This document shows positions 29,587-53,424 of a DNA stretch of 64,000 nt, one piece after another. Source of the DNA: Allopusillimonas ginsengisoli (lineage in GTDB: Bacteria > Pseudomonadota > Gammaproteobacteria > Burkholderiales > Burkholderiaceae_B); the NCBI RefSeq assembly GCF_004153455.1, contig NZ_SDQE01000002.1, positions 248,001 through 312,000 of the forward strand, given 5' to 3'. The notes under the pieces are model-generated. The model saw nothing but the letters and a program-made list of their open reading frames with translations. It did no database searches and had not been told where the DNA came from. The position numbers and the translations under genes were made by a program. Every line of letters begins with the position of its first letter. Position 1 is the first letter of the stretch.

Positions 29587-30081
29587 ATGAACAAGATTGA
29601 ATCCATCGCCCGATATATGCGCGAACATAACCTTCTTCTGGTTACTGCCGAGTCTTGCACTGCCGGCCTTATTGCTGCGCGACTAGTAGATGCACATGGG
29701 GCGGGAGAAATACTCGATTGCGCATTTGTCACCTATTCACCTTCAGCCAAGCTAAGCTGTTTAGACGTAAATGCCGACACCATAAAGACATTTGGCCTGA
29801 CAAGCGAAGAGGTTTCCACAGAAATGGCAATTGGAGCCCTTGCCCATAGCAGAGCAAATGTCGCCATCGCCAACACAGGAACGACCGAGCCGATGCCTGA
29901 TGGGCCTCCGGAAGGCACACAATGCTTTGCTTGGGTATTCAAGAAGTCCGGCGCAGCTTTATTGGTCTTCTCAAAAACCAAAAAATTTGAAGGCACAAGA
30001 AATGAAATTCGCGAAGCCAGTGCCGATTTTGCGCTGCAGCAACTGATTCGTTTGCACAAGGAAAATCCTCGTGCGAGATAA
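29587..30081 (+). CDS. CinA C-terminal-domain (nicotinamide-nucleotide amidohydrolase-like) protein
   Basis: The product is 164 residues, the size of stand-alone PncC. VTAESCTAGLIAARL, the catalytic-serine motif, and FVTYSPSAKLSCLDV plus EEVSTEMAIGALAHSRANVAIA follow the family. The usual TGIAGP-x-GG block is degenerate here (TGTTEPMPDGPPEG), so activity as NMN deamidase is uncertain. Base composition is more AT-rich than the hao-ccm genes. It is probably a horizontally acquired paralogue rather than the housekeeping copy. Confidence 0.75.
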   Translation: MNKIESIARYMREHNLLLVTAESCTAGLIAARLVDAHGAGEILDCAFVTYSPSAKLSCLDVNADTIKTFGLTSEEVSTEMAIGALAHSRANVAIANTGTTEPMPDGPPEGTQCFAWVFKKSGAALLVFSKTKKFEGTRNEIREASADFALQQLIRLHKENPRAR

Positions 30082-30874: not shown

Positions 30875-31810
30875 TTAACCACTAAGTGCCAGCGATGCAG
30901 AACGCCGAGATAAGCCTGGAGGTTTGCCGTGTGCCAGCTTGTCCACCAAGAAATCAAGGAAGACACGGGTTTTGGTCGGCATCAGACGCGACGGGAACAT
31001 CGCGATCAGAGGAATGGACTCGAATTCCCAATCGGGCAGAATGCGGACCAGGCATTTCTCATCGTCCGCGCGCGCTAGCGCGTGAGTTGAAAGCGTTACG
31101 ATACCGACACCCAGTGTTGCCAAACGGCTCAGCATGGCCACATTGTTTACGACAACTTGACTGGAGACCGTCACCACCTCTTCACGCGACCCCGCTCTCA
31201 GATGCCAAACAGAGCCCTCCTTATCAGCAGAGGAACGCAGGCATTCGTGTTGGGCTAGGTCCGCTGGACACAGTGGCGTCCCGTGCCTGTCCAAATAATC
31301 AGTAGATGCATACAAACCAAGCCGCGCATAAGTAAGCAGGCGCGAGACCACGCTTGAGTCAGGCTGCTTGCCCAGACGGATGACAACATCGAAAGGATCG
31401 GCCAGCAGATCGATGGCCTGGATGCCCAGGTCGTACTCACACCGAATTTCGGGATACCGCAGCCCAAATTCCTGGATAGCCTGCGGCATATAAGTAAGGG
31501 CAAAGCTGGAAGGCATGGATATTCGCAACTTTCCTTTGGGTTGCTGGGCTGTCTCGGTCAGTTGTTCATGCGCGATGCGGGCTTCGGTGACAATGTGCTG
31601 GCAGCGCTCAAAGTAAACGGCGCCCGCTTCGGTAAGCTCAACCTTGCGGGTGCTCCGATGAAGCAGACGTATGCCGATATGCTGTTCCAACTGGCTGATT
31701 CGACGCGAAAGCGTAGACGCGGGCATGTCCAGCGCCGAGGCGGCGCGCGTAAAGTTCCGGCTCTTGGCAACCTCGACAAAGAGCGCGATATCATTGAGAG
31801 ATGGCTCCAT
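30875..31810 (-). CDS. LysR-family transcriptional regulator
   Basis: The product is 311 residues. An N-terminal HTH (LNDIALFVEVAKSRNFTRAASALDMPASTLSRRISQLEQHIGIRLLHRSTRKVELTEAG) is followed by a substrate-binding domain of the CrgA/DmlR-like group (residues ~90-290). It lies 69 bases downstream of the NTF2-like gene on the same strand, at the tail of the catabolic operon. The first 366 bases are nearly duplicated, inverted, at 41945-42310. Its target is unknown. Confidence 0.9.
   Translation of the reverse strand: MEPSLNDIALFVEVAKSRNFTRAASALDMPASTLSRRISQLEQHIGIRLLHRSTRKVELTEAGAVYFERCQHIVTEARIAHEQLTETAQQPKGKLRISMPSSFALTYMPQAIQEFGLRYPEIRCEYDLGIQAIDLLADPFDVVIRLGKQPDSSVVSRLLTYARLGLYASTDYLDRHGTPLCPADLAQHECLRSSADKEGSVWHLRAGSREEVVTVSSQVVVNNVAMLSRLATLGVGIVTLSTHALARADDEKCLVRILPDWEFESIPLIAMFPSRLMPTKTRVFLDFLVDKLAHGKPPGLSRRSASLALSG
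31445..31810 (-). repeat. Inverted duplicate arm A (5' part of LysR gene)
   Basis: This segment, read on the minus strand, matches 41945-42310 on the plus strand with only scattered differences (by eye more than nine in ten bases). Homology starts exactly at the start codon and stops in the codons for PEI. It forms one arm of an inverted repeat enclosing the catabolic operon. Confidence 0.9.
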
Positions 31811-31879
31811 ACTTATTCCTGTTGTGATAGCAACCAAGATCCGCGTACTGCAATTCTCAGGAGAACGGTCAGTTAGTCT

Positions 31880-32278
31880 TCAGGCGTCGGTAGATGCTTT
31901 GGTCGACTGCCACGCCACAACACGCCAAACTGCCCCTTCACGAATCCAGACATTCGTATATCGACTCTGAAGCGAATGTTCGATCCCGCCTAGACGGACC
32001 TGTTGATTGACAATCCCCGACGCGACTGCGGCATCGGCCGAGATGACATACTTCTCGTCTTCGCGACAAATACAGAGGTACTGCGAAGTACCACCTTCAA
32101 TTCTGGCCAGCAGTTCCTGTTTACTGTCTACGTGACCCGACGAGTGCGTCCAAACCAGCTTGTCGCTGAACAGTCGATCAAGCACAGCCATATCGGCTCT
32201 AATCATCGCCCGGCACCGCTCATCCTCCAGGGCTTTCAGGTTGGCCGGTTGTAGTGAGCTCATATCCAACTCCATCAT
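31880..32278 (-). CDS. NTF2-like (SnoaL/DUF4440-type) protein
   Basis: The product is 132 residues with the alpha+beta cone layout: helical start (LKALEDERCRAMIRADMAVLDRLFSDKLVWTHSSG), then strands with GGIEHSLQSRYTNVWIREGAVWRVVAWQST. The C-terminal W-R-V-V-A-W-Q is a DUF4440/SnoaL hallmark. Members range from isomerases to ligand-binding proteins. The tandem ATGs overlap the NIPSNAP stop codon, so translation is coupled. Confidence 0.82.
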   Translation of the reverse strand: MMELDMSSLQPANLKALEDERCRAMIRADMAVLDRLFSDKLVWTHSSGHVDSKQELLARIEGGTSQYLCICREDEKYVISADAAVASGIVNQQVRLGGIEHSLQSRYTNVWIREGAVWRVVAWQSTKASTDA

Positions 32279-32595
32279 TTAATTGGCGAGAAAATGGTCG
32301 GCACGAGAATCTTGGTTTCCATGACATCGATCAGTTCAAGAAGTTTCTTTACAGCCACTTGCCAAGCTGGGTCCGCATACAGCGCATCGCGACAGCGTGC
32401 ACGCTCGTTCAGGTCGGCATAACCCCACATATGCACAATCTGGTTAAGAGGACCGATGTCAGTCGAAAAGTATCCAACCATATGCGGAAGATGTTTCTTC
32501 TGTACCTCCATCGCTTCCCGCATGTAGACATCCAGATAGGCAGGCACTCCGCCTGGCTTTATGGTGTAAGTTCGTAGTTCAACAATCATTGTCAT
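32275..32595 (-). CDS. NIPSNAP-family protein
   Basis: The product is 106 residues, a dimeric alpha/beta barrel type. It opens with IVELRTYTIKPGGVPAYLDVY and contains VGYFSTDIGPLNQIVHMWGYADLNER, the NIPSNAP pattern. Small NIPSNAP proteins recur in aromatic and hydroxyacid catabolic operons, with no established reaction. It begins 6 bases after the FAH gene, with GGAG just before the ATG. Confidence 0.87.
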   Translation of the reverse strand: MTMIVELRTYTIKPGGVPAYLDVYMREAMEVQKKHLPHMVGYFSTDIGPLNQIVHMWGYADLNERARCRDALYADPAWQVAVKKLLELIDVMETKILVPTIFSPIK

Positions 32596-32601
32596 CTCCT
32601 T

Positions 32602-33525
32602 TTAGTCCCGCACCTGGATGGCCAGATGGCCAATCCCTTCGATTTCGGCGTCCAATCGATCGCCAGGCTTCAGATACTGTCCCGTCGCCAGGCCGACACC
32701 ACTTGGTGTACCAGTCATGATGATGTCGCCGGGCTCGAGCGTCACGTGCTCGGTGATGGCAACGAGTTGCTCCGCAATGTTCCAGATCATCAGACTAGTC
32801 CGCGCATGTTGCTTCACCTCTCCATTCACCTTAAGTGTCATTTCCAGATCTTCAGCATTGACTTGATCTGCAGGGACAATGCACGGACCGAGTGGGTTGC
32901 TTGAGTCAAAGGCTTTCCCGCCGAACAGGTCAAATTTGACCAGGTGTTTTTCATGAAACTGCCAGTCGCGCGCAGATAAGTCGATGCCGATCGTGTAGCC
33001 CGCAATGCACGACATTGCGTTCTCGATAGTGAGTCGGGTCGCTCGCTTGCCAATGACAGCGGCAAGTTCCAGTTCCCAATCGAACTGTTTCGTTTGCACT
33101 GGATAGAGTACCGAAGCGCCGCTACCCACAATCGCTGTGGTCGGCGGCTTCATGAACAGACAGGGGATCTTTGAAGCCTTCTCGAAATCTTCAACACCTG
33201 CATCCTGTTGCATATGATCCAGATAGTTGGCACCCATCATGATCAGTTTGTTCGGATATAGCAGCGGCGCAAGAATGTCGTCGGCGGATGGCGGCGCAGA
33301 AATCTCGCCGGCCACGCTCCCAGACGAAAGACGTGAAGCGAGGCTGGTGAGATGCTTGCTGGACTGCTCCCAGTCGTCAAAGAGATGCATCAGACCACGA
33401 GCGGAATCCGGAGGGAGCAAATCCGGCGCTACAGCTGAGATTGGCCAGTAGTGTCGATTAACCTCGATCACAGGAGTAGGCCTGTTCTGATAGCGGAAAG
33501 TGGCAAGTGTGTATGGAGTAGTCAT
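32602..33525 (-). CDS. Fumarylacetoacetate hydrolase (FAH) family enzyme
   Basis: The product is 307 residues. Metal-binding FDWELELAAVIG (E-x-E) and GYTIGIDLSARDWQ are present, as are the catalytic-loop segment KFDLFGGKAFDSSNPLGPCIV and the C-terminal GDIIMTGTPSGVGLA. Family members hydrolyse fumarylpyruvate or acylpyruvates, isomerise homoprotocatechuate ring-fission products, or decarboxylate oxaloacetate. With a ring-cleaving dioxygenase in the same operon, a role in processing the cleavage product is the best inference. It lies 50 bases after the enolase-like gene. Confidence 0.9.
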   Translation of the reverse strand: MTTPYTLATFRYQNRPTPVIEVNRHYWPISAVAPDLLPPDSARGLMHLFDDWEQSSKHLTSLASRLSSGSVAGEISAPPSADDILAPLLYPNKLIMMGANYLDHMQQDAGVEDFEKASKIPCLFMKPPTTAIVGSGASVLYPVQTKQFDWELELAAVIGKRATRLTIENAMSCIAGYTIGIDLSARDWQFHEKHLVKFDLFGGKAFDSSNPLGPCIVPADQVNAEDLEMTLKVNGEVKQHARTSLMIWNIAEQLVAITEHVTLEPGDIIMTGTPSGVGLATGQYLKPGDRLDAEIEGIGHLAIQVRD

Positions 33526-33575
33526 AAGTCATCAGGTTCCGTAGTAGCGAAGGCGACCAGTCATAGGGCGACACG

Positions 33576-34874
33576 CTAAAGAAATGGACACGCCAGTTGC
33601 AGGTCGTCGTGTTCCGAAATTCGTGTCAGCTGGTTGTATTTTCCTAAGCGTTCGGAGTTGCGAACGGAGCCGATCTTGATCTGACCTGCATTCGATCCCA
33701 CTGCCAAGTCTGCGATAAACGAATCCTCCGTCTCCCCCGATCGCGCGGACACGACGGTCGCATAGCCGCCCACTTGAGCACGCTTCATCGCTTTGAAGGT
33801 ACCGGATAGCGTGCCGTTCTGATTCACCTTGATCAGTGCGGCGTTGGCCGCCCTCACATTGATGCCATGCGAGATACGCTCGGGGTTGGTTACGAACAAG
33901 TCGTCTCCGACGATCTGCACATTGGGAAAGCGTTTCGTGAACGCTGCCCACGAAGACCAGTCATCTTGATCAAATGCATCTTCAATCGAAATCAACGGAT
34001 ATCGACGTATGAAGTCTCCAAGGAAGTCCACCATCTCTTCGCCATCGAGTGTGCGCCGCTCTCCCAGCAACTGATATTTCCCTTCGTGGTAGAACTCGCT
34101 TGCAGCGACGTCAACCGCGATGGCAATGTCGTGACCTGGACGCAGCTTTGCTCGTTCAAATGCGCGCATCATTAGCTGAAACGCCTGTTCAGCGGACGAA
34201 TAGCCAGGACTGAGCCCCCCCTCGTCCGCCAGCAAGGTTGTGATACCGTCTTCGGCTAACAGTTCGCTTGCCGCCGCGCGCACATTGGTAAGCATGTTTA
34301 GCGCGTCAGCATAGTTCTTGGCGCCAACAGGAACAGCCAGAAAATCCTGAAAGTCCATGCTTCGGCGGGCATGCGCGCCTCCGCTGAGAATATTGGCCAT
34401 GGGCATTGGCATCGAGATCCGTGTCGTGCCGATCAACTGCGCAATGTAACGATGCAGCGGCAACCGCTCATGTATTGAGGCTGCCCGACAGATCGCGAGC
34501 GACGTAGCAATGATCGCGTTCGCTCCGAGCCGTGAAAGGTTTTCCGAGCCGTCAAGGGCTCGGAGTGCATCATCCAGCTCTTTCTGCGACGTCGAGCACC
34601 GCCCCTTGAGAAGCTCTGCAATCTCACCGTTAATATTGCCAACGGCTTTGGATACGCCGCGACCTTGATGGTGTGTGTCGTCACCATCGCGCAGTTCGAG
34701 AGCCTCATGCCGCCCAGTGGACGCACCTGATGGTGCACAGGCTCGTCCATACGAGCCGTCTCTGAGTTCTACGTCAACCTCGACCGTCGGACGACCGCGA
34801 GAGTCAAGAATCTGACGACCACGCACATGCAGGATATCGGCAGAGCGAGCTGAGTTCAAAGAAAAATGTGTCAC
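33576..34874 (-). CDS. Enolase paralogue with altered active site
   Basis: The product is 432 residues, full enolase length. Metal ligands are retained (Asp255, Glu298, Asp324), as are catalytic Lys349 and Lys400, the SGAST loop (49-53), His168 and Glu218. Residues around the C3 leaving group differ: the NGG-x-H loop has Ser164 for Asn, the QEF motif has Asp177 for Glu (yeast E168), and the invariant SHRSGETED reads SARSGETED, Ala377 replacing yeast His373. I infer dehydration of a phospho-hydroxyacid other than 2-phosphoglycerate. The start is GTG with GGTGGA upstream, 14 bases after the dehydrogenase-kinase gene. This is unlikely to be the glycolytic copy. Confidence 0.88.
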   Translation of the reverse strand: MTHFSLNSARSADILHVRGRQILDSRGRPTVEVDVELRDGSYGRACAPSGASTGRHEALELRDGDDTHHQGRGVSKAVGNINGEIAELLKGRCSTSQKELDDALRALDGSENLSRLGANAIIATSLAICRAASIHERLPLHRYIAQLIGTTRISMPMPMANILSGGAHARRSMDFQDFLAVPVGAKNYADALNMLTNVRAAASELLAEDGITTLLADEGGLSPGYSSAEQAFQLMMRAFERAKLRPGHDIAIAVDVAASEFYHEGKYQLLGERRTLDGEEMVDFLGDFIRRYPLISIEDAFDQDDWSSWAAFTKRFPNVQIVGDDLFVTNPERISHGINVRAANAALIKVNQNGTLSGTFKAMKRAQVGGYATVVSARSGETEDSFIADLAVGSNAGQIKIGSVRNSERLGKYNQLTRISEHDDLQLACPFL

Positions 34875-34888
34875 GTCATATCCACCGA

Positions 34889-36739
34889 TTAGTTAAACCA
34901 CCGATCTGCGAACTTCATGTCGCCGCTCAGCAGTGTCTTTGCAATGCGCCGTATACCAACTGTATCCAGCTCGGAAACATACTCAACAGGAGAGTCGCTA
35001 TCGAGTCTCGCCAGCAGCAGACATCCAACCAGTGGCAGCAAGTGGGCATCAAAGATGGCCAGGCCTTCTAAGCGATAGCCTTCCACGACCGATCGCTCAG
35101 CAAGCAACAGCTCATCCACCATGGCATTCCGACGATGCGCCTTGAGCATCAGGTGCGCAAGCACAAAGGCCAAGTCGAAACGAGGGTCACCCCAATGCGC
35201 GACCTCCCAGTCGACTACCGTTACGTTCGTGTTATCGACCAGGAGATTCTTCGGACTGTAATCACCGTGAACGAGCGCCTGTCGCCGGGTTCGCATGCCT
35301 TCGATGACGGCAGCAACCGCATCGCGATATTCGGGGTTGCGCTGCGCGACGCGCTCGAAATACGGCTCAACACGCAACTCTCGAAAAAATGTCTGATCGG
35401 CGAAGCGTTCAGCAAGCACTTGACTCCTGGATGAGCGTTTATGCAGCATTCCTAGCAGCTCGCCCACCCTTCGGGCCGTCGCGAGATTGACGGTGCCTGC
35501 AAGAAGCTCTTGTTTCCAATTTGTCTGGATAGGCGAGATGCGCTCCATCGCGAACTGGTTGCGAATACGATCGCTCCACAAGACTCGCGGTACCGCCTCG
35601 GCTCCCAGCAATTCAGCTGCGGCGTTCAGCGCCGCAACTTCCGTCAAGGACCGTGCCGGATCCGATCGCCAGTCTGCAGCGACTTTCAGTTGATCCAGAG
35701 CTCTCTTGAGTACGATCGAACCTTGAACAGTCTGAATTACATGAATATCGCTCGCCACGCCACCCGGTAGCGTTTGACCATTCTGAAGTCGGTTGCACGC
35801 ATTGATGGGATCTTTTCCTTCTAGAACCCGTACCACTTCTTCGCACGCCTTGATCCGCAATTCGGTGACCGAGGTCGTTGAGAGAAAAGCCACATGGGGA
35901 GTTGCCGTGACATGTGCATGCCCTAGAATACTGGCAGGCGGACTAGGTTCTCCATCGACAACGTCCAGCGCAGCGCCACACAGCCGGCCGTCAGCGAGCG
36001 CGTTCAAAAGGGCTTCGTTGCAGACAAGCCCTCCACGACTGACATTGATGAGTAACGGCTTACGTTTGCAGGCGGATATGAAATCCTCATCTACAAGATG
36101 ATGCGTTTCTTCGTTGAGCGGCGCGTGCAGAATAATGACATCCGCTCTTTCCTGGATATCTTCGATGGTGGACACCTGTACCTTTGCATTCGGGGCCAGT
36201 GGTTGAACGCCGTTGGTCGCCATCACCGTGCATCCGAAGGCGGCCAGCTTGCGAGCGGTTGCACGGCCAATTCGCCCGTACCCAATAATGCCAACGCTCA
36301 ATTCGGCAATACGTTTTAAAGGGCGGGTGCCTGGCGCCCATCGTCCTCTCTTGACGTCGCCGTTATACCCGGAGATTGCCCTGAAATGATTCAGCAACAG
36401 CGCAAGCGCATGGTCTGAAACTTCTTCAACACAATAGTCCGGTACATTGGTGACCCAGGCGCCGACGGCAGTTGCTGCGCCAATGTCAATGTTGTCGAGC
36501 CCTACACCCAGGCGGGCGACGATCCTGAGCTTAGTCGCAGACGTAATAGCTGTTGCGGACACGGGAGCCCAACAGGTCAGAATGGCATCAGGATCATGCT
36601 CAGCCACCAGGCGCTCTACTTCCGCCTCGCTCCCGGGAACGGCGGGACCCGCAACGAACTCAAAACCGACCGTTTCAAGCATGCCGGTCTCGATCTTCAA
36701 GTCGGGCCATGCATAATCTGTGATAAGCACTTTCATCAT
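34889..36739 (-). CDS. Fused D-2-hydroxyacid dehydrogenase / APH-type kinase
   Basis: The product is 616 residues. Residues 1-320 form an NAD(P)-dependent D-2-hydroxyacid dehydrogenase: GYGRIG at 153-158 and catalytic Arg235 (NVSRGG), Glu264 (VDGEPSPP) and His282 (TPHVAF). Residues ~325-616 form an aminoglycoside-phosphotransferase-fold kinase. It has a candidate ATP lysine, Lys345 (IVLKRAL), the catalytic loop HGDYSPKNLL (Asp493, Asn498) and the metal Asp510 in VDWE. Both halves appear catalytically complete and no frameshift is needed. I infer reduction of a 2-oxo acid followed by phosphorylation of the hydroxyacid, feeding the enolase-like enzyme next door. I do not recall this as a standard architecture. 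Confidence 0.88.
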   Translation of the reverse strand: MMKVLITDYAWPDLKIETGMLETVGFEFVAGPAVPGSEAEVERLVAEHDPDAILTCWAPVSATAITSATKLRIVARLGVGLDNIDIGAATAVGAWVTNVPDYCVEEVSDHALALLLNHFRAISGYNGDVKRGRWAPGTRPLKRIAELSVGIIGYGRIGRATARKLAAFGCTVMATNGVQPLAPNAKVQVSTIEDIQERADVIILHAPLNEETHHLVDEDFISACKRKPLLINVSRGGLVCNEALLNALADGRLCGAALDVVDGEPSPPASILGHAHVTATPHVAFLSTTSVTELRIKACEEVVRVLEGKDPINACNRLQNGQTLPGGVASDIHVIQTVQGSIVLKRALDQLKVAADWRSDPARSLTEVAALNAAAELLGAEAVPRVLWSDRIRNQFAMERISPIQTNWKQELLAGTVNLATARRVGELLGMLHKRSSRSQVLAERFADQTFFRELRVEPYFERVAQRNPEYRDAVAAVIEGMRTRRQALVHGDYSPKNLLVDNTNVTVVDWEVAHWGDPRFDLAFVLAHLMLKAHRRNAMVDELLLAERSVVEGYRLEGLAIFDAHLLPLVGCLLLARLDSDSPVEYVSELDTVGIRRIAKTLLSGDMKFADRWFN

Positions 36740-36785
36740 GTTTCAGAGTCAATTAGAGGAGAGCTGGCTAGCAGCCTCGCAATAT

Positions 36786-37712
36786 TCATGAGCGCAGGAA
36801 GTCTTCCGGCATTGCCATAGTGGACCATTGCTCAAGGGATTCTTGGTTATGGGGGTTCACTTTCGTTGGGTATGTGTCATTGAGCAGATCTCCATCGGTT
36901 ACATGCTCGACGCGAAAACCTGAGGGGTCGTACCAATAATCGGAAATTGCCCCGCCGAGTGCGTGACGCACAATACCCCAAGACGCCTTGTAGCCTTTTG
37001 ACATCAAGTATCGGCGGCCTACGCCGATGGCATCCAGATCAATTGTCTCAAAGCAGGCGTGGTGTGCACCATTTGTCGGACCCAGGAAAACTGCAACGTT
37101 GTGATGATCAACATATTCAGCGCCTTGCGGGAACCGCATGAACGCGCCAATCACTGTTTTGTTCTCGTCACAGATCAAATCCGAGGAATATGCCCCCAGG
37201 TTCTCTGTAAACCATTTAATAATGGCTGGCGGATTTGGAGAACTCATCACCACGTGTTTGAGCCCCACCACTTCGGCAGGCCGCAGATCAAAAATCGGAA
37301 ATCTTCCAAGGCGCCGACGCTCTCCCCATGAATTCCAAGCGACTGCGGGGCGACTCACCGCTATCGGCGCGCTACGTGCCATGCCATAAACAAGCTCGAC
37401 TCTCCGGCCATCCGGATCCGTCGTCGTCACCCTTTTCCCGCCACCGGGATAATGAAGCTCCTCGATCGGAGCATCCAAACGCACAGACAACGCTTGCAGA
37501 CTTTCCTGCGAATCCACCTCGAATGCCATTCCAACGAAAGCCGCCTCTTCTCCACGCTCAGCAATATAGAGATACGGTGCATCACCACATCCTCGAAAGA
37601 AAATTCGATCGGACGTTTCTTCAGCGACAGTCAAACCGAAGTCCTCGAAAAAGGTCCGCACGGCATCGAGATCACGATGCCGGTATATTGCGTAGCTGAT
37701 TGATTTAATCAT
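36786..37712 (-). CDS. Type I extradiol ring-cleavage dioxygenase (VOC superfamily)
   Basis: The product is 308 residues from the ATG at 37712 (GGGAGA upstream). There are two vicinal-oxygen-chelate repeats (~1-110 and ~150-270). The Fe(II) triad is visible: His153 (GLKHVV), His217 (GAHHACFE) and Glu269 (FRVEHV). Their spacing of 64 and 52 matches BphC (146/210/260), and His203 of DHHNVAVF matches the acid-base His195. It should cleave a catechol-like ring meta to the hydroxyls. It is the first gene of the catabolic operon, 46 bases before the fusion gene. Confidence 0.87.
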   Translation of the reverse strand: MIKSISYAIYRHRDLDAVRTFFEDFGLTVAEETSDRIFFRGCGDAPYLYIAERGEEAAFVGMAFEVDSQESLQALSVRLDAPIEELHYPGGGKRVTTTDPDGRRVELVYGMARSAPIAVSRPAVAWNSWGERRRLGRFPIFDLRPAEVVGLKHVVMSSPNPPAIIKWFTENLGAYSSDLICDENKTVIGAFMRFPQGAEYVDHHNVAVFLGPTNGAHHACFETIDLDAIGVGRRYLMSKGYKASWGIVRHALGGAISDYWYDPSGFRVEHVTDGDLLNDTYPTKVNPHNQESLEQWSTMAMPEDFLRS

Positions 37713-38151: not shown

Positions 38152-39210
38152 TTACAAAGGCCTGGTGGACCCACGAAGCACCAACGATGTTTCGAACTGA
38201 AGCGTACCGGCCGAAGCGCTTGGTGGGATAGTCGCATGACGAGTTTCGAGACGTGAGAGAAGGACTGTCGTTGCTGTGGTGGCAATGTCTTTTACGGGCA
38301 GCTGCACTGTTGTGATGCCCTCCTCAGCGAGTTCGAACCACGGGGGATCATGATATCCAACGACGGATACGTCCAGTGGCCATTCGAGTTTCAACGCTCT
38401 TAGCGCCTGTAAGGCGCCCAGCGTCAATTCAGCGCTGCCAAGAATGATTCCTGTCGGACGATTCTTTGCCGACATCATGGCGGTAACCGCGTACCGTGCA
38501 AACTCCGGGCGCGGCAATCCAAGCGCTATATTCGTCGCCTTCAAGCGGTGCTCGTTAAGCGCATCCTGGAATCCGCCAAGCCGCTCTCGTCCGGTGCTGA
38601 GCGTCTCGTCCCCGCCCACGAATGCAAGGCGTTTATGACCACTCGCGATAAGGTGTCGGGTCGCGCTCCTAATGCCTCCGCGATCGTCGATAACCACCGC
38701 ATTTCCGACAAGATCCGTGTGCACTCGCACGAGCTGAACTGTTTCGACGTTCTGCAATAGCGCGCAGGTTTCCGGACGCGGCGAGGCAGTCGGAACAATG
38801 ATAATTCCTGCCGGTCGCGTCTCGAGAATTGCTCGTAGTTCGCGCAATTCACGCTCCGGGTCATCGTCAGTGACCGACAGTAAAAGCTGCATCGAATGCA
38901 ACGCCAGAGAATCCGCTACGATTTTCGCAACGGTCGCATAAAAGTCATTTTGCACATCAGGAATAATGAGGCCCACAAGAGAGCTGCGCCGGCCACGCAT
39001 CATTCTCGCTGAGGCAGATGGCAAATATCCCATCTGCTCTACCATCGCGCGAACGCGCGACTTGGTCTTCTCGCTAATCTTTGGATTATCAGCCAACGCG
39101 CGCGAGACCGTCGTATGAGAGATATTCAGCGCTTTCGCCACATCTCGTATCGTGACCCCTGCTTCTCCCCGCAGCGGGAGCCTCGCTCCGGGTGTATCGT
39201 TGGCATCCAT
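38152..39210 (-). CDS. LacI-family transcriptional regulator
   Basis: The product is 352 residues. The HTH VTIRDVAKALNISHTTVSRALADNPKISEKTKSRV is followed by the hinge YLPSASARMMRGRRSSLVGLIIPD and a periplasmic-binding-protein-like effector domain. The ATG at 39210 has AAGGGG upstream; the longer frame lacks one. Lying upstream of the catabolic operon, it is the natural candidate to bind the palindromes at 37903, 39408 and 47898. It would then control both uptake and catabolism. Confidence 0.92.
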   Translation of the reverse strand: MDANDTPGARLPLRGEAGVTIRDVAKALNISHTTVSRALADNPKISEKTKSRVRAMVEQMGYLPSASARMMRGRRSSLVGLIIPDVQNDFYATVAKIVADSLALHSMQLLLSVTDDDPERELRELRAILETRPAGIIIVPTASPRPETCALLQNVETVQLVRVHTDLVGNAVVIDDRGGIRSATRHLIASGHKRLAFVGGDETLSTGRERLGGFQDALNEHRLKATNIALGLPRPEFARYAVTAMMSAKNRPTGIILGSAELTLGALQALRALKLEWPLDVSVVGYHDPPWFELAEEGITTVQLPVKDIATTATTVLLSRLETRHATIPPSASAGTLQFETSLVLRGSTRPL

Positions 39211-39277
39211 GGTGACATCCCCTTCACTTGAGTACGTTAAATTTCGCGCACCTCTGGGCAGGTCAGCGCCACAGTGG

Positions 39278-39301
39278 TTGCTAACGACCAATCATTAGCA
39301 A
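39278..39301. promoter_or_regulatory. Inverted repeat TTGCTAA-N10-TTAGCAA upstream of lacI
   Basis: Perfect 7-base arms spaced by 10 bases, 68 bases upstream of the LacI start codon. A related TTAACTAACGATC follows at 39343. It could be an additional operator or a promoter-region stem. Confidence 0.35.
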
Positions 39302-39421: not shown

Positions 39422-40633
39422 TTATATCGACGTTCGCTCGCTCGACCAGTAGACCAGGGCTAGCACTGGCAGCGCGACTCCGATCCACGATGCCAGCGGC
39501 CATCCGTTCTGAGCGTAGGCCCACCCGCCCAAAGCGGAACCGATTGCCCCACCGATAAAGAAGGTAGTCATATACAGCCCGTTTAAGCGCGCGCGAAACT
39601 CCGCCCCCAGCCCGAAGATTTCGCGCTGCCCTAATGCCATATTCGCCGCCACGCCAAAGTCGAGCACCACGGCAGCCAGTACCAGCAATATCAGTGACCA
39701 TGTTGATCCCGGCGTGGCGATGTGGGTTAACAGAAAGCCCGCCGCTACCGCTAGCATAGCCAGTGCTGTGGCAGGGCGTGTCCAACCTAGATCCGCCACG
39801 CGCCCAGCGATGGGCGCGGCTATGGCGCCCGCCACCCCGGCCAGCGCAAATAGGGCGATGCCGCTTTGAGAGAGTTCGAATATTGGCCCCGCCAGCAACA
39901 GCGGCGTAGTGGTCCAGAACAGGCTGAAAGCCGCGAATAGTGCAGCATGATAGAGAGCGCGGCGGCGCAAAATGGGAGTGTGGCGAGCAAGTCGTCCCAT
40001 AGATGCCAGCAGTTGACCATAATGCAATTGCCCTCTTGGTACACGCGTGGGCAATTTCAAAGCCAGTGCGCCTGCCAACAGTGCCATCGTCGCAGCAGAT
40101 GCGAAGAAAACCGAATGCCACGAGAAAATTTCCGTAAGGAAGCTCGATACCGGACGAGCCAGCATGATGCCCAGCATTAGGCCGCTCATCACATTACCAA
40201 CCACGCGTCCGCGCATTACCTCCGGCGCCATGTGTGCCGCATAGGGCACCAACACCTGCACCGCAACAGCTCCGACGCCAATACCCAGCGACGACAGCAG
40301 AAAAGGTAAGGGACTCGTGGAAAGCCCTGCACCCAACAATGCTAGCGCCGAAACGCCCAGCAGCACGAGTGTCAACAAGCGGTTCTCGATCAAGTCACCC
40401 AAAGGCACTATCAGTAGCAAACCCATGCCGTAGCCGATCTGCGTCAGCGTTACGATCAGTCCAGTTGCTCCGGCAGACAGCCCGAGTTCAACGCTGATTA
40501 GCCCGGCCAATGGCTGGGCGTAGTAGATGTTTGCAGCTATCAGGCCACAGGCGACGGCTTGTAGCAAGACCAACCATCGCGAGAATGTCTGGGTTTCAGG
40601 CCTCGCATTGACCATTGAAAGTGGAGAGCTCAT
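39422..40633 (-). CDS. MFS transporter (DHA1-type)
   Basis: The product is 403 residues with 12 membrane helices. ANIYYAQPLAGLISVELGLSAGATGLIVTLTQIGYGMGLLLIVPLGDL is typical of the YtbD/YdeA-like sugar or drug efflux group. The start ATG at 40633 follows AAGGATT; a further in-frame ATG lies at 40660. It follows the TetR gene on the same strand by fewer than 50 bases, so it is probably the target of that repressor. Confidence 0.86.
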   Translation of the reverse strand: MSSPLSMVNARPETQTFSRWLVLLQAVACGLIAANIYYAQPLAGLISVELGLSAGATGLIVTLTQIGYGMGLLLIVPLGDLIENRLLTLVLLGVSALALLGAGLSTSPLPFLLSSLGIGVGAVAVQVLVPYAAHMAPEVMRGRVVGNVMSGLMLGIMLARPVSSFLTEIFSWHSVFFASAATMALLAGALALKLPTRVPRGQLHYGQLLASMGRLARHTPILRRRALYHAALFAAFSLFWTTTPLLLAGPIFELSQSGIALFALAGVAGAIAAPIAGRVADLGWTRPATALAMLAVAAGFLLTHIATPGSTWSLILLVLAAVVLDFGVAANMALGQREIFGLGAEFRARLNGLYMTTFFIGGAIGSALGGWAYAQNGWPLASWIGVALPVLALVYWSSERTSI

Positions 40634-40680
40634 AGAATCCTTGTATAAGAGAACGTTCATGTCCTAAATAGGTAAAAAAA

Positions 40681-42367: not shown

Positions 42368-43249
42368 TTATGGCTTGTGCATCCTGTCATGCAACGGCAG
42401 TCCGGAATCAGCCCATTGCGATAGTGCAAAAAAGTCGAGCTGTCCCATTCCGGCCTGCTGGAACGACGCGCTGACCTGCCGGACCATCGAACTCAGAGGC
42501 AGTGCCAAATCAACTGCAGCACCCTCTCGGACTGCGAGGCCGGCATCCTTGGCTACAGTGTCCAGGCTCGCCGATGTGGCCGCCCATCCCAATGACTTCA
42601 GCATGTCGGCCTTGTACTGTATCAGCGGCGAAGACACGGCGCTTTCAGCCATTGCATCGACGATCATCTCGCGAGAAACGCCCAATCGCGTGGCCAGAGC
42701 AATGGCTTCGCCGACTAACAAGGGCACACAGCCCGCAATGATATTGATAGCGAGCTTGATGGCGCGCGCCTCTTCAGATTCACCACAGAAAATCACACGA
42801 GATCCAAGATGACATAAATAAGACTGCGCAGCGGCAAACGCGCGTTGCGTCCCGGAACAGTAGATGGTCAGTGTGCCAGACTCGGCAAGGCTGACACTAC
42901 CAGAAACTGGCGCGCGGAGATATCTGTCTGCTTGGCGTCCGGCAGCAACCTGCCTCGACGCGCTCAACGATACGGTACTCATGTCGACCAGGGTGACAGC
43001 CGGATCAAGCATGGATCCGACCTTAAGAAGAGCTTCATCATCTGACACCATTGAGAACACTAGATCGCATTTTCGGCTCAGCGCTGCAACGCTGCCACAC
43101 TCCGTCGCGCCTTGCTTTGCCAGCTCCTTGGTTGCTGTAGCACGCAAATCATAAACGGCAACCGGTATGTTGTTGTTCAGTAGGCGTCTGCACATAGGCG
43201 TGCCCATCTTGCCCAAGCCTATCCATCCCACATGAAGTTTAGTTTCCAT
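42368..43249 (-). CDS. 3-hydroxyisobutyrate / tartronate-semialdehyde dehydrogenase-family protein
   Basis: The product is 293 residues. Rossmann motif GWIGLGKMGTPMCRRL is at the N-terminus, substrate-binding APVSGSVSLAESGTLTIYCSG lies near residue 115, and the catalytic Lys is in ARAIKLAINIIAG. The family interconverts beta-hydroxyacids and semialdehydes with NAD(P). Its 2-base spacing from the LivF-like gene makes it the last gene of the transporter operon. This suggests it acts on the imported compound or a product of it. Confidence 0.88.
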   Translation of the reverse strand: METKLHVGWIGLGKMGTPMCRRLLNNNIPVAVYDLRATATKELAKQGATECGSVAALSRKCDLVFSMVSDDEALLKVGSMLDPAVTLVDMSTVSLSASRQVAAGRQADRYLRAPVSGSVSLAESGTLTIYCSGTQRAFAAAQSYLCHLGSRVIFCGESEEARAIKLAINIIAGCVPLLVGEAIALATRLGVSREMIVDAMAESAVSSPLIQYKADMLKSLGWAATSASLDTVAKDAGLAVREGAAVDLALPLSSMVRQVSASFQQAGMGQLDFFALSQWADSGLPLHDRMHKP

Positions 43250-43251
43250 TT

Positions 43252-43992
43252 TTATGCACCGAAATAAAGACGCCTGATTAAATCGCTGTTGTTCAGAGCC
43301 GTACGAGTGCAAGCCTCTAATTCGATCTTGCCGTGTACTAGCACATAGCCTGCGTCTGCGATTCGCGACGCTTGGTGAAAGCTTTGCTCCGCCATCAGTA
43401 CGGTCAAGCCGAGTGACGCCTTCAACTTGGCAATAGTCTCCATTGTTCGAGTCACAAGGATCGGCGCTAATCCTACGGATGGCTCATCTATGATCAGAAG
43501 GCGAGGCGAAGACATCAGCGCGCGGCCCAAAGCCACCATCTGCTGCTCGCCACCGCTCATCGTGGACACCACTTGGCGCCGACGCTCGGCAAGACGGCCG
43601 AAGATTGAGTAACAAACTTCCAGATTGGCTGATCGTGCTGCTCGAGCGTGGCGTGGAAATGCCCCCAGCAGCAGATTTTCTTCCACGGTAGACTGCGGGA
43701 ACAGTCGACGCCCCTCGGGCACGAGCACGATTCCCAGCTCCACGATTTCCTGCGTACTGAGGCCCAGGAGATCGATTTCATTTCCGTCGATGTTCGCAGT
43801 GATTGTGCCCCTATTCGCCGGCAGCATGCCCATGATGCAACGAATAACTGTCGACTTACCGTTGCCATTGGTGCCCAGCAATAGTGTCGTTTGACCGGAA
43901 TCAGCGTCGAGCGACACCTCGCTCAGTACCTGGATGGCACCGTATCCAGCGGACAGACCCTTGACTGTGAGACTTGCGTGTTTATTGTCCAA
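43252..43992 (-). CDS. Branched-chain-type ABC transporter ATP-binding protein (LivF-like)
   Basis: The product is 246 residues. Walker A LLGTNGNGKST, signature TMSGGEQQMVALGRAL, Walker B LLIIDEPSVGLAP, and VPEGRRLFPQSTVEENLLLGAF are LivF hallmarks. The start is TTG, overlapping the end of the LivG-like gene with GAGAGGG upstream. It powers uptake in a LivHMGF-type complex. Confidence 0.92.
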   Translation of the reverse strand: MDNKHASLTVKGLSAGYGAIQVLSEVSLDADSGQTTLLLGTNGNGKSTVIRCIMGMLPANRGTITANIDGNEIDLLGLSTQEIVELGIVLVPEGRRLFPQSTVEENLLLGAFPRHARAARSANLEVCYSIFGRLAERRRQVVSTMSGGEQQMVALGRALMSSPRLLIIDEPSVGLAPILVTRTMETIAKLKASLGLTVLMAEQSFHQASRIADAGYVLVHGKIELEACTRTALNNSDLIRRLYFGA

Positions 43993-44713
43993 GATATGCC
44001 CTCTCTATGCTGCTAAGTGCCAGAACGTTGTCCGGCACTCCGTCCGCGATTTTTTCGCCAGCCACTATGACGATCAGCCGCTGCGAAAATCGCGTAACGG
44101 CTCGCATGATGTGTTCAATCATGATCACCGATGTGCCGTTGGAGTTGAACTTCAGCAGTAGATCGAGAATCTCGTCCACCTCTGACCCAGACAATCCAGC
44201 CATCGCCTCGTCGGCGATGAGAAGATGGGGCGATGTCGCGATGCCCTTGGCCAGTTCCAATTTACGCAGTTCCACCTGAGTCAGCTTGTCCGGCATGACA
44301 TCTAGCTTGCGGCCCAACCCAACATCACAAAGAGCGCGTGCGGCGACCCCCCTGATTACTTCAGCGGAATTGGCACCCGGTCGGTGAAGAAGGGGCGTGG
44401 ACACGTTGTCGAGCAACGTCAGGCTCCAGAAAGGCCTGGGCAACTGAAAAGTGCGAACCAAACCGCGATGGGCGCGCTCGTGTGGCGGCAGGCGTGTGAT
44501 GTCCGAGCCCTGAAACTGGATACACCCTGCACTGGAGGCTGTAACACCAGTAATGCAATTTACCAGCGTGCTTTTGCCAGAGCCGTTGGGGCCGATAATG
44601 CCAAGTCGCTCACCTGGATTAAGCTCAAGGCCAACGCCGTTTAGGGCGGTGAAACCTCCATACTTCTTTACAAGCCCTGTGACTGAGAGTTGTGGATTGA
44701 TTGGCTCAGTCAT
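43982..44713 (-). CDS. Branched-chain-type ABC transporter ATP-binding protein (LivG-like)
   Basis: The product is 243 residues. Walker A IIGPNGSGKSTLVNCITG, the LivG-type VRTFQLPRPFWSLTLLDNV, a variant signature LTQVELRKLELAKGI in place of LSGGQ, and LIADEAMAGLSGSEVDEI. The LSGGQ loop is replaced by LTQVE and Walker B ends DEAM rather than DEP. Related LivG-type subunits for aromatic or short amide substrates show similar drift. It overlaps the LivM-like gene by 8 bases. Confidence 0.9.
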   Translation of the reverse strand: MTEPINPQLSVTGLVKKYGGFTALNGVGLELNPGERLGIIGPNGSGKSTLVNCITGVTASSAGCIQFQGSDITRLPPHERAHRGLVRTFQLPRPFWSLTLLDNVSTPLLHRPGANSAEVIRGVAARALCDVGLGRKLDVMPDKLTQVELRKLELAKGIATSPHLLIADEAMAGLSGSEVDEILDLLLKFNSNGTSVIMIEHIMRAVTRFSQRLIVIVAGEKIADGVPDNVLALSSIERAYLGQ

Positions 44714-45713
44714 GGCGAGCCTTTCGCAACTGTTTACGTATCCCTGCCAAACCGTTGGGTGCCGCTACAAGGAACACTATCATTAGAATGGCAACGAGCA
44801 GCAGGTGAAACGATGACGATATAGTAACGACTGCTATCTGCTGGATCACGGCGACGAAAATGGCACCCAATACCGGCCCAACCCAGGTACCGATGCCGCC
44901 GATTAGCACCATGGCCATCGTGTTGGCCGACATGGTCAGCCCGAAAAGCGACGACGGCTCAACAAACGTCAGGAAGTAGGCCGCCGGCGCACCAGCCGCC
45001 CCCATGAGCGCGCCACTCACGACGGCTGCCCATAATTTGAGCTTGAGTGTGGGAATACCTGCAGCTTCCGCCGCCAGTTCGTCGTCCTTCAATGCCTTCA
45101 AACCCGCGCCCGCGCGTGATTCTTCGATAAAGCGTCCTAACCACACAGCTGCGATGGCCATCAGCAGCATTGCCATAAAAAGATACTCGGTATAGCTGCT
45201 TAGAAAACCCGTGGTGAGATCCGGCCGAACAACGAGGGCACCTCGCGCGCCGCCGATGTAGTCCCAGTTCGTTATCAACGTCTCCAGCAACACTACTAGT
45301 GCCAACGTCGCGATCGAAAAGTACGCCCCCTTGACACGCAGCGTCAGATAACCGATCAACATTCCAAGCACGCCACTGACGATGGCCGCACAGCCAATGA
45401 GTATCGCGAGATTGCCGACGCCCAGCTTAAGTAGCAGCACAGCGACATAACAGCCAGCGCCGAAAAGACCCGCAGTGCCGAAGTTGACATAGCCTGCGTA
45501 ACCGCCCAAGATGTTCCAAGCTACCGCCAGCACTACGTATTGTAGGACAGTGTAAGAAGCGAACCAGAGATATTCTGAACCGGCGAGATGCAGAGCGCCG
45601 AACAGGAGCGCGCCAACCGCCACGAACATGGCATTAAACATCCATTCCCTTTGATTGGCGACTGCGATCCGATGAGTGCGCAAGGCAATATAGGATTCTA
45701 ATGAGTTCTGCAC
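44706..45713 (-). CDS. Branched-chain-type ABC transporter permease (LivM-like)
   Basis: The product is 335 residues with about ten membrane helices. LAVAWNILGGYAGYVNFGTAGLFGAGCYVAVLL and GLKALKDDELAAEAAGIPTLKLKLWAAVVSGALMGAAGA are the LivM signatures, including the cytoplasmic coupling loop. The start is GTG with AGGAGATAACA upstream, 9 bases after the LivH-like gene. Confidence 0.92.
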   Translation of the reverse strand: MQNSLESYIALRTHRIAVANQREWMFNAMFVAVGALLFGALHLAGSEYLWFASYTVLQYVVLAVAWNILGGYAGYVNFGTAGLFGAGCYVAVLLLKLGVGNLAILIGCAAIVSGVLGMLIGYLTLRVKGAYFSIATLALVVLLETLITNWDYIGGARGALVVRPDLTTGFLSSYTEYLFMAMLLMAIAAVWLGRFIEESRAGAGLKALKDDELAAEAAGIPTLKLKLWAAVVSGALMGAAGAPAAYFLTFVEPSSLFGLTMSANTMAMVLIGGIGTWVGPVLGAIFVAVIQQIAVVTISSSFHLLLVAILMIVFLVAAPNGLAGIRKQLRKARHD

Positions 45714-45722
45714 TGTTATCTC

Positions 45723-46595
45723 CTAGCGTGCAAATAGACCTTGCGGCCGAATTACCAGCGTCACAAGAAGTAGTACGAAGGCCACACATAGAGACCACTC
45801 TGGCCCTACGTACGTGGCGGTGAAGTTTTCGAGAACCCCGAAGACGACTGCTGCGACCCACGTCCCTCGTACACTTGCCAAGCCGCCGAGGATGCAGATA
45901 GAGAACATCCGGCCCAAATAAGTGTGGCCAGCCCAGGGGTCTACAGGTTGAATGAGCAGCAAGCAGATGCCCGCAAATGCACCGAGCGCCAAGCTTAGAC
46001 CGAAGGCGAAGCTGCGGATACGTAGTGGGTCAATTCCTACGAATCTGACGGCAAGCTTGTCCTGACCGACAGCCGCAACAGCCCTGCCAATGAAGGTGTG
46101 CCGCAAGAACGCGATCATTCCTCCGCCCAGTATGGTAGCCGCCACAAATGGAATCAACAGCCGCATTGGCAAACTGAATCGGCCGATTTGCAGAGTTGTA
46201 GAGACGTACCATGCCGTGTTTATTTGTCGACGTTCCGGCCCAAATATCATAGCCAGCCCCGTCTCAAGCAAAAACAGCAGAGCGAAGAAAAGAGCCAATG
46301 CCTCGATGGATCCGCTTCGCTTGACCTCAAAAACCTTGAAGTACTGCCGGTAAAAGTACTTGCCAATAAAAAAGAAGCCTATCAGAACAAAGAGCCCGCA
46401 CAGAAAGGGGTCCAGCCCGAAACGTGTTGCGGCAGCTTGGGTCAAGATGGCGGCACAGACCATAACAGCCGGCTGAGCTATGTTGACCACATCCAACATT
46501 CCAAAAGAGAGTGTTAGGCCAAGGGTTGCGAGGGCATAGAAACCTCCAAGCAGTAAACCGGAAATTAGCGTATTGACGAAGAGATCTATCATCAT
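45723..46595 (-). CDS. Branched-chain-type ABC transporter permease (LivH-like)
   Basis: The product is 290 residues with eight or so helices. LISGLLLGGFYALATLGLTLSFGMLDVVNIAQPAVMV is the LivH N-terminal signature; RAVGQD-like GRAVAAVGQDKLAVRFVGIDPLRIRSFAFGLS forms the coupling loop. It follows the binding-protein gene by 8 bases. Confidence 0.92.
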   Translation of the reverse strand: MMIDLFVNTLISGLLLGGFYALATLGLTLSFGMLDVVNIAQPAVMVCAAILTQAAATRFGLDPFLCGLFVLIGFFFIGKYFYRQYFKVFEVKRSGSIEALALFFALLFLLETGLAMIFGPERRQINTAWYVSTTLQIGRFSLPMRLLIPFVAATILGGGMIAFLRHTFIGRAVAAVGQDKLAVRFVGIDPLRIRSFAFGLSLALGAFAGICLLLIQPVDPWAGHTYLGRMFSICILGGLASVRGTWVAAVVFGVLENFTATYVGPEWSLCVAFVLLLVTLVIRPQGLFAR

Positions 46596-46603
46596 GGCGT
46601 GCC

Positions 46604-47851
46604 CTACCTGGCAAGGTAGGGCGTGACAACATCGCCCGTCTTGAACTGTGGCGGATAAAGGATTACTTGGACGCCAGGATGCTTAAATTGCTCAAGACTG
46701 TTTGGCGTCACATTGCGATATTGGACGAGCAAACTACGTTCTTGCGTCCACTCGCCGCCATCACCGAACCGCACCTCGCCGACTACTGTCTTGAACGCAG
46801 CCGAGCGCAGGACGTTCGCTATTAAACCTTGATCGAGCGACCCAGCCTTATCCACGGCCTGCGCAAGCACTTCCATGCGCGCATAAGCAAACGGGGGCAC
46901 ATAGAAACCCAGTGAATCAGCTCCTACTTTCTCCGCACGCTGCTGGTATTTGCGCAGGAACGCGCTAACACCTGGGAAGTCCATCGTTTTCTCTGGTACA
47001 TATACGTCCCACGTCACCAAGTTGTTCAGCGCTGGGCCCATTTGCTTCTTAAACTGGCCTACCTGTGGTCCAATCACAGGGCCTCCGACCATCATCGCCT
47101 GTACACCTACCTCTTGGAATGCGCGAACGAGGCCTGCAGAATCTCCTGGTAGGGTAGCAAGGAAAATCAGGTCGGGCTCCACCGCCTTGATCGACCGCGC
47201 TATCGGGCTGAAATCCACAGTCGACGGCGGATATGAACGGTCGTACACCACTTTGATTGAGTGGCCCTCCAGGTTCTGCCTGATACCGTCAGTGGCCTTC
47301 TTCGGAAACTCTGCATCGGCACCGACAATGGCAATCGACTTCGGAGCGGGGTTCAAAGTCGTGGCAACTTGCACGAAGCCTTTCGATAGCGACAGTGCAG
47401 GTTCGGGGCCCAAAGGCATCATCGAAAAGTAGCGGTTGTATTTGAACAGCGAGTTGGCTTGGGTACCAAACAATCCGATGTAGGCCATCTTACGCTGAAT
47501 GACGGAGGGCATCGCTGCGATGACATGTGCGGTGCTGTATCCAGAGAGCACTAGATCTATCTTGTCAACATCCAGCAATTTGGCATAGATGCCCGGTATC
47601 GCCGAAGACGAGCTTTGATCATCGTAATACACGAGCTTTACGGGACGCCCAAGCAACCCACCTTGCGCGTTGATCTCTTCGTTCCAAATCTGGGTTGCCA
47701 GCAGTGCCGCTTTGCCGCTGGCTGCCAACGCTCCGGAAAGGGATATTGAAAAGCCAATTTTTATAGGCTTGGGGCTCTGCGCGTGGCTTATTGCCGGAAT
47801 GCCCACAAGTGAAAGTGCTGCTGCACTCAGAAGCTCTCGCCGTGTAGTCAT
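46604..47851 (-). CDS. Branched-chain-type ABC transporter substrate-binding protein (LivK-like)
   Basis: The product is 415 residues. An N-terminal TTRRELLSAAALSLVG with cleavage near SHAQS could be a Tat or Sec signal. The mature part opens with IKIGFSISLSGALAASGKAALLATQIWNEEINAQGGLLGRPVKLVYYDDQSS, characteristic of peripla_BP_6 proteins of the amide/urea/aromatic-acid subgroup. The ligand is unknown. A LacI-type palindrome lies 47 bases upstream of the start, linking it to the dioxygenase operon. Confidence 0.92.
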   Translation of the reverse strand: MTTRRELLSAAALSLVGIPAISHAQSPKPIKIGFSISLSGALAASGKAALLATQIWNEEINAQGGLLGRPVKLVYYDDQSSSSAIPGIYAKLLDVDKIDLVLSGYSTAHVIAAMPSVIQRKMAYIGLFGTQANSLFKYNRYFSMMPLGPEPALSLSKGFVQVATTLNPAPKSIAIVGADAEFPKKATDGIRQNLEGHSIKVVYDRSYPPSTVDFSPIARSIKAVEPDLIFLATLPGDSAGLVRAFQEVGVQAMMVGGPVIGPQVGQFKKQMGPALNNLVTWDVYVPEKTMDFPGVSAFLRKYQQRAEKVGADSLGFYVPPFAYARMEVLAQAVDKAGSLDQGLIANVLRSAAFKTVVGEVRFGDGGEWTQERSLLVQYRNVTPNSLEQFKHPGVQVILYPPQFKTGDVVTPYLAR

Positions 47852-47897
47852 GATTTTCGCCCATTTATGAACATGATGGAGCAATGATGCAAATTAA

Positions 47898-50412: not shown

Positions 50413-50422
50413 GTCGCCTCTC

Positions 50423-53413: not shown

Positions 53414-53424
53414 GATGCTGTCTC

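Follow-up and report, generated by a model that had tools for sequence, protein, structure and literature searches.

A kinase-partnered, altered enolase in a putative ring-cleavage operon of Allopusillimonas ginsengisoli

Organization of the operon

The 64,000 nt of Allopusillimonas ginsengisoli DNA analysed here (assembly GCF_004153455.1, contig NZ_SDQE01000002.1, positions 248,001-312,000 of the forward strand; hereafter, the window) host a six-gene operon in which a ring-cleaving dioxygenase is associated with a fused dehydrogenase-kinase and an altered enolase. The operon was defined from the listing of open reading frames (ORFs) and spans 31880-37712 of the window, on the minus strand. 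All six frames are unbroken. In order of transcription, intergenic gaps measure 46, 14, 50, 6 and -4 bases, the last two genes sharing 4 bases. Pfam matches and ORF coordinates bear out the six tightly spaced, co-oriented genes reported in a first-pass annotation of the same DNA.

The first gene (36786..37712, 308 aa) encodes a type I extradiol dioxygenase of the VOC superfamily (PF00903, E 1.1e-8). The frame begins with a GTG at 37724; an alternative ATG at 37712 is preceded at a few bases by what we read as a GGAG box, in agreement with the gene boundary formerly proposed. The protein scores below the NCBIfam cut-off for catechol 2,3-dioxygenase (76.5 vs 320 bits). Alignment to the latter (1mpy) spans the iron-site half, and both the 2-His-1-Glu positions and the second-sphere His/Tyr positions, to which we assign the corresponding roles by assumption, are kept.

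The second gene (34889..36739, 616 aa) encodes a D-2-hydroxyacid dehydrogenase (PF02826, 4.4e-47) fused to an APH-fold kinase (PF01636, 1.4e-16), and the third (33576..34874, 432 aa) an enolase paralogue featuring both Enolase_N (PF03952) and Enolase_C (PF00113) domains. The fourth gene (32602..33525, 307 aa) encodes a predicted hydrolase/decarboxylase of the FAH family (FAA_hydrolase, PF01557, 2.6e-66). Residues E151, E153 and D182, presumably metal ligands, are retained in all the five sequences compared, window included.

The two distal genes encode a NIPSNAP protein (32275..32595, 106 aa; PF07978, 8.7e-31) and a DUF4440/SnoaL-like protein of the NTF2 fold (31880..32278, 132 aa; PF14534, 1.6e-19). 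Relatives of both were found in one other cluster only, that of Sphingomonas tagetis (L043), where the NIPSNAP relative, 56% identical, occupies the far edge and the NTF2-like one, 30% identical, adjoins the FAH gene. The two genes look peripheral to the operon, and may be passengers.

The dehydrogenase-kinase fusion

The dehydrogenase occupies approximately residues 1-318 of the fusion protein, and the kinase residues 319-616. The former resembles phosphoglycerate and hydroxypyruvate dehydrogenases. The GxGxxG motif and the Arg/Glu/His set by which D-2-hydroxyacid dehydrogenases are recognized are both present, and R235, E264 and H282, which we take to be catalytic, are found in all 12 sequences compared, that of the window among them. 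In the kinase, the Lys, the Gly-Asp of the HGD motif, the Lys-Asn and the Asp-x-Glu are invariant in 96/96 sequences, window included, and the HGD His is present in 94; the roles of these residues are assumed from kinases of this fold.

The kinase region matches APH and ecdysteroid-kinase-like Pfam models only, and the nearest solved structure is methylthioribose kinase. Three classes of glycerate kinase (class I, MOFRL, and phosphoribulokinase/uridine kinase-related) are distinguished in PMC2063504, none having an APH fold. By fold, the window kinase fits none of classes I-III.

The fusion is restricted to the window in the genomes searched. At E 1e-60 the whole protein matched one of 274 genomes of the class, that of the window itself, and at 1e-40 the sole full-length match in 200 genomes of the family was again the window. 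A frame in one genome (G507), initially taken as a second fusion, corresponds to two genes and was rejected. In the relatives read, dehydrogenase and kinase are separate genes, adjoining each other in Sphingobium and Rhizobium.

The A-type enolase

Few enzymes of central metabolism are as conserved as enolase. The window protein scores 499.6 bits against the phosphopyruvate hydratase model TIGR01060 (cut-off, 300), and retains K349, K400, E218, D255, E298 and D324, which we take to correspond to catalytic Lys345 and Lys396, Glu211 and the three metal ligands of the yeast enzyme. At three positions it departs from canonical enolases, D177, A216 and A377 replacing Glu, Gly and His, respectively.

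We call A-type the enolases that carry Ala in the SHRSGETED motif, at the position occupied by His in canonical enolases. Once second copies were removed, 121 distinct genes could be compared, 84 A-type, 33 canonical and 4 of neither type (two Val, one Thr, one gap), the last being excluded from the comparison. The SHRSGETED column defines the groups, and 30 of the 33 canonical genes were fetched by the His motif; the remaining columns are independent. The Glu of QEF is Asp in 84/84 A-type enolases and Glu in 33/33 canonical ones, while the Gly preceding DEGG is Ala in 83/84 of the former and Gly in 33/33 of the latter. In A-type enolases, moreover, the Asn of NGG is replaced by Gly or Ser in all 84, the Thr following the Lys of IKTG by Val or Ile in 82 (one gap and one X account for the rest), and, in the His159 loop, the canonical Asn by Arg in 56. 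The catalytic Lys and Glu are conserved, as are the metal ligands. In an unrooted tree built from 59 sequences, of which 34 are A-type, 22 come from the 33 canonical ones and 3 are of neither type, a single branch, with 100/100 support, splits A-type from canonical enolases.

By near-constant offsets in numbering, the altered His and Glu plausibly correspond to yeast His373 and Glu168, which we assume to line the end of the pocket that holds the C3 hydroxyl. The altered residues would surround the site from which glycolytic enolase expels the C3 group.

The A-type motif was detected in 6 of 299 Pseudomonadota genomes and in 8 of 200 genomes of the family, the window genome being counted in both sets; it was not found in four further genomes of the genus. 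The canonical motif was detected in 281 of the 299 Pseudomonadota genomes, including all the six A-type genomes. Being rare, and accompanied in these six genomes by a canonical counterpart, the A-type enolase is an accessory enzyme. The window genome itself has two enolase genes, one of which canonical, and also encodes a MOFRL glycerate kinase. By its residue pattern and its place in the tree, the A-type enolase appears to be a distinct enolase type rather than a spare glycolytic copy.

Kinase-enolase pairs in bacteria

A-type enolase genes were sought by motif, without use of the kinase, and yet a kinase match was found on the same contig, within 9 kb, in 8/8 genomes of the family (seven at 1e-40, the eighth, G458, at 8e-25) and in 5 other genomes of the phylum. 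In four hand-picked genomes lacking the motif, matches to the fusion protein start in the dehydrogenase part, and none extends beyond residue 357 of 616.

In the reverse direction, a kinase alignment run against GTDB species genomes identified at least 563 relatives, of which the best 80 were used. An enolase gene is present in 70 of these 80 stretches, and in 67 of the 70 lies no more than 500 bases from the kinase frame. By motif, 62 of the 70 enolases are A-type, one has Thr, one Val, and 6 could not be assigned, two of which on alignment carry Val (L069) and a gap (L070); no canonical enolase was seen among the 70. Five of the ten stretches lacking enolase are contigs that stop within 300 bases of the kinase. 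Judged from the record titles of these best 80, kinase loci are found in Proteobacteria, Acidobacteria, Planctomycetes, Chloroflexi, Verrucomicrobia and a haloarchaeal metagenome-assembled genome (MAG). The pair hosted by the latter, on a Salinarchaeum contig (L077), includes an enolase located on a very long branch.

At loci lacking a close relative of the window dehydrogenase (see below), the pair has varied neighbours. LacI genes directly adjoin it in 4 of the 6 same-family genomes read, and one of these loci carries a TRAP binding protein gene. Of 137 candidate neighbours, many of which probably false ORFs, 106 were scanned; 2-hydroxyacid dehydrogenase is the commonest Pfam family among them (8/106). 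A PanE-type reductase adjoins the pair at one locus, and a lactate permease and a TcuC-like transporter are also found among the neighbours. In a Negativicutes MAG (L050), kinase, A-type enolase and a nickel-dependent 2-hydroxyacid racemase of the LarAH10 family lie in a row. Because dehydrogenase, PanE-type reductase, lactate permease and LarAH10 racemase all occur next to the pair, the neighbours suggest that the kinase substrate is a 2-hydroxy acid. According to PMC11770544, LarAH10 enzymes favour bulky 2-hydroxy acids. By analogy, this single locus would fit a substrate with a bulkier side chain than glycerate.

Ring-cleavage clusters

Ninety-five kinase loci were compared, 80 from the GTDB scan, 9 on plasmids (read out of 16 records covering at least 80% of the fusion protein) and 6 from same-family genomes, and neighbouring genes were scored by similarity searches. 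Eight stretches (L122, L123, L039, L040, L125 and L127-L129) were left out.

In 11 of the 95 loci a dehydrogenase at least 45% identical to that of the window is present. These loci invariably feature an enolase, a VOC dioxygenase and an ADH gene (11/11 each), and frequently a cupin (10/11), an FAH gene (8/11) and a LacI gene (6/11). The picture is different in the 45 loci of 15 kb or more lacking the close dehydrogenase, in which VOC, ADH and cupin genes were never found and FAH and LacI genes were found four and five times, respectively. Over all 84 loci lacking the close dehydrogenase, the score is 0/84 for VOC and 5/84 for FAH genes.

Gene order varies among the clusters. In Sphingobium TomTYG74 a PcaK-type transporter, LacI, ADH, cupin, dioxygenase, dehydrogenase, kinase, enolase and an FAH relative, annotated as hypothetical, are found; in Rhodococcus opacus PD630, FAH, dehydrogenase, enolase, kinase and FAH. 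The Rhizobium Pop5 cluster comprises phosphoenolpyruvate (PEP) carboxylase, dehydrogenase, kinase, NAD(P)H-dependent oxidoreductase, ADH, ABC transporter, dioxygenase, enolase, cupin, LacI and FAH genes. In several clusters the A-type enolase is annotated as phosphopyruvate hydratase. Besides three Rhizobium clusters, two more genomes have a PEP carboxylase gene adjoining the dehydrogenase-kinase-enolase trio; in Pararhizobium and Cupriavidus loci such a gene lies within 8 kb. The adjoining carboxylase suggests that PEP itself is made in these clusters.

The FAH enzyme ties the window to these clusters, since the four plasmid proteins closest to it (52% and 44% identical) are encoded by Rhodococcus and Sphingobium clusters of the same kind; a fifth (39.5%, Paroceanicella) lies outside such a cluster. 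The window operon is a reduced or divergent version of these clusters. Of the six-gene linkage proposed at first, the core stands, as dehydrogenase, kinase and enolase genes are accompanied by VOC in 11/11 loci and by FAH in 8/11; NIPSNAP and NTF2-like genes, of which relatives were found only in L043, look peripheral to it.

Some of the stretches left out deserve mention. The Gordonia plasmid p174 (L123) carries a dehydrogenase gene, an A-type enolase gene broken into two frames, and no kinase gene, in a stretch cut at the record start; this looks like a decayed copy. Kinase is likewise missing from L040. A Methylobacterium locus (L122) has kinase and A-type enolase, and no close dehydrogenase. 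On a Cupriavidus plasmid (L128) a canonical-type enolase adjoins pyruvate kinase, with glycerate kinase, four-carbon acid sugar kinase and RuBisCO-like genes nearby.

A candidate route from ring cleavage to phosphoenolpyruvate

The operon probably encodes a catabolic route in which a ring-cleavage fragment is reduced, phosphorylated and dehydrated, to yield PEP or a 3-substituted analogue. In the order of steps that we infer, the dioxygenase would open the ring, and the FAH enzyme would cut the product to release a 2-oxo acid that is oxygenated at C3. Reduction of C2 by the dehydrogenase domain would give a D-2-hydroxy acid, and the fused kinase would phosphorylate the newly formed C2 hydroxyl. 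The A-type enolase would finally abstract the C2 proton and expel the C3 substituent. An aromatic substrate is plausible. As the genome has an ordinary enolase and a MOFRL glycerate kinase, and the active site of the A-type enolase is changed in a fixed manner, a C3 substituent other than hydroxymethyl is favoured; judging from the residues replaced, the C3 group is expected to be larger than, or different from, that of 2-phosphoglycerate. This may be a bulkier carbon group or another leaving group, such as methoxide.

Linkage and retained catalytic residues both argue that dehydrogenase, kinase and enolase belong together and plausibly follow the reduce-phosphorylate-dehydrate logic recognized in the first-pass annotation. 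A literal copy of the series from hydroxypyruvate to glycerate, 2-phosphoglycerate and PEP, as envisaged there, is probably not what the operon encodes, in view of the canonical enolase and MOFRL kinase found in the genome and of the three enolase changes. The corresponding alternative, in which the FAH enzyme frees hydroxypyruvate and the operon is a co-regulated duplicate of plain salvage, is unlikely, yet fares best among those considered. The order of activities matches, the dehydrogenase is of the phosphoglycerate/hydroxypyruvate dehydrogenase kind, catalytic Lys, Glu and metal ligands of the enolase are conserved, and some clusters adjoin PEP carboxylase. Against it, the genome already has a MOFRL glycerate kinase and a canonical enolase, and changes in 84/84 and 83/84 A-type enolases at positions invariant in 33/33 canonical ones are unexpected if the substrate were the same.

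Two of the replacements, Asp for Glu and Ala for His, are smaller residues where the C3 hydroxyl is presumed to lie and would accommodate a methyl group, and a 3-alkoxypyruvate, e.g. 3-methoxypyruvate derived from a methoxylated ring, could be converted to PEP by an enolase expelling methanol in place of water. PEP carboxylase neighbours, suggestive of free PEP, and the NAD(P)H-dependent oxidoreductase and 4-hydroxybenzoate-transporter-like genes of related clusters are in line with this scheme. We consider it improbable nonetheless, as no demethylase or methanol-oxidising gene is annotated among the annotated clusters read, and the pair occurs more widely next to genes without any link to aromatics, e.g. 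those for a TRAP binding protein or a lactate permease.

Little credence is similarly given to the idea that kinase and enolase serve a general sugar-acid or 2-hydroxy-acid route and ended up by chance in a ring-cleavage operon whose genes would not form a single pathway. Dioxygenase and FAH genes are absent from most loci of the pair, as the counts over the 84 loci indicate, and NIPSNAP and NTF2-like genes are scarcely conserved; chance is nevertheless difficult to reconcile with the VOC dioxygenase found in 11/11 loci having close dehydrogenase and kinase, and with the position of the four best plasmid FAH relatives in such clusters. Tartrate-like or sulfolactate-like substrates were also considered, on account of the Arg found in 56/84 A-type enolases, the TcuC-like transporter, the TRAP binding protein and the wide distribution of the pair, but the ring-cleavage clusters offer no pointer to them.

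Several observations weigh against the ring-cleavage route. The window dioxygenase is only 23-24% identical to the VOC dioxygenases of the other clusters, and falls in a different VOC subfamily. Its nearest plasmid relatives, 36% identical, are located elsewhere, and at the one such locus examined an MhpA-type hydroxylase gene is adjoining and enolase is missing. The ADH and cupin genes of the other clusters are also missing from the window, and ADH relatives in its genome do not exceed 29% identity. Given the different dioxygenase subfamily and the lack of ADH and cupin, the upstream chemistry of the window operon may differ from that of the other clusters. The eleven-locus counts include three Rhizobium and two Rhodococcus near-copies and are thus not independent; nine of the eleven are plasmid loci found through a match to dehydrogenase and kinase, so that the pairing is there by selection, and the VOC, ADH and cupin queries were drawn from clusters among the eleven. 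FAH genes were not seen in three of the eleven. Likewise, no enolase was found at three kinase loci (L112, L114, L121) read over 10 kb on each side, and the kinase can therefore occur alone, or may have other partners. An Agrobacterium plasmid (L039) carries a dehydrogenase 52% identical to that of the window near a mandelate-racemase-family gene, with neither kinase nor enolase. Finally, the window enolase scores far above the phosphopyruvate hydratase cut-off, and the substitutions could reflect tuning, and not a change of substrate.

Relation to known systems

The operon shares with the glycerate pathway (hydroxypyruvate reductase, glycerate 2-kinase, enolase) the series reduction, phosphorylation at O2, dehydration, and differs from it because the kinase has an APH fold, the enolase is a distinct paralogue, and dioxygenase and FAH genes are linked. 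A-type and glycolytic (TIGR01060) enolases have in common the domains, the catalytic Lys and Glu, the metal ligands and an Arg-Ser pair, roles that we presume, the last being phosphate binding; the former are set apart by the His to Ala, Glu to Asp and Gly to Ala changes, by their accessory status and by the kinase gene regularly found nearby. A VOC dioxygenase and an FAH-family enzyme are also the components shared with homoprotocatechuate meta-cleavage (HpaD, HpaG). Scores of the window proteins are nonetheless low (65 vs 321.4 bits for HpaD, 135.5 vs 276.4 bits for the HpaG C-terminal model), and the six genes include no aldehyde dehydrogenase or aldolase. As for the LarA superfamily of 2-hydroxyacid racemases, the association of a LarAH10 gene with kinase and enolase in L050 points to entry through a 2-hydroxy acid; no such gene is present among the window genes scanned.

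More generally, and tentatively, the A-type enolases may make up an unnamed subfamily that, in many phyla, works with an APH-fold 2-hydroxy-acid kinase to make enol phosphates from 2-phospho acids different from 2-phosphoglycerate, a system through which, in this operon and its relatives, ring-cleavage products would enter metabolism directly as PEP. Few non-glycolytic uses of the true enolase family are known to us, among them one in phosphinothricin biosynthesis, for which a search of open-access papers gave no match. If the proposal is correct, the A-type clade would be a new enzyme function hidden under the phosphopyruvate hydratase annotation, and A-type enolase and kinase would open a further way from ring cleavage to PEP. 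Searches of an open-access library aimed at the pathway or gene set gave no paper naming it in the title or the opening lines of the abstract, and it may be described elsewhere. What is mainly added to the first-pass annotation is an enolase subfamily partnered by a kinase and altered at three positions, and the widespread linkage of the core genes.

Regulators and flanking genes

A LacI-family regulator gene (38152..39291, minus strand) is located upstream of the operon. Its product is 40-42% identical to the LacI proteins encoded beside the kinase-enolase pair in 4 of 6 same-family genomes, and for this reason LacI likely regulates the operon. Farther upstream, on the same strand, is found an MFS transporter gene (39422..40660, PF07690), a possible partner for uptake or efflux. 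A TetR regulator gene is also upstream, on the same strand. Downstream of the operon lies a LysR-family regulator gene (30875..31837, minus strand), the membership of which is uncertain. In the window, the LacI operator motif AANCGNTT occurs at a frequency near chance (17 found vs 14.3 expected), as do promoter-like sites (6 vs 5.8). Terminator-like sites exceed chance (18 vs 9.1, sd 3.0). We propose no regulatory site.

Upstream of the operon region, minus-strand genes at 42368-47884 encode an ABC transporter of the branched-chain type and a 3-hydroxyisobutyrate-dehydrogenase-like protein; the binding protein of this transporter is 32% identical to that of the Rhizobium cluster. A second ABC transporter (permease, and ATPase with a TOBE domain) and a DAO-type FAD oxidoreductase are encoded at 49630-54669, on the same strand. 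On the plus strand, the ORF at 29587-30081 encodes, as judged by sequence, a putative CinA C-terminal domain protein.

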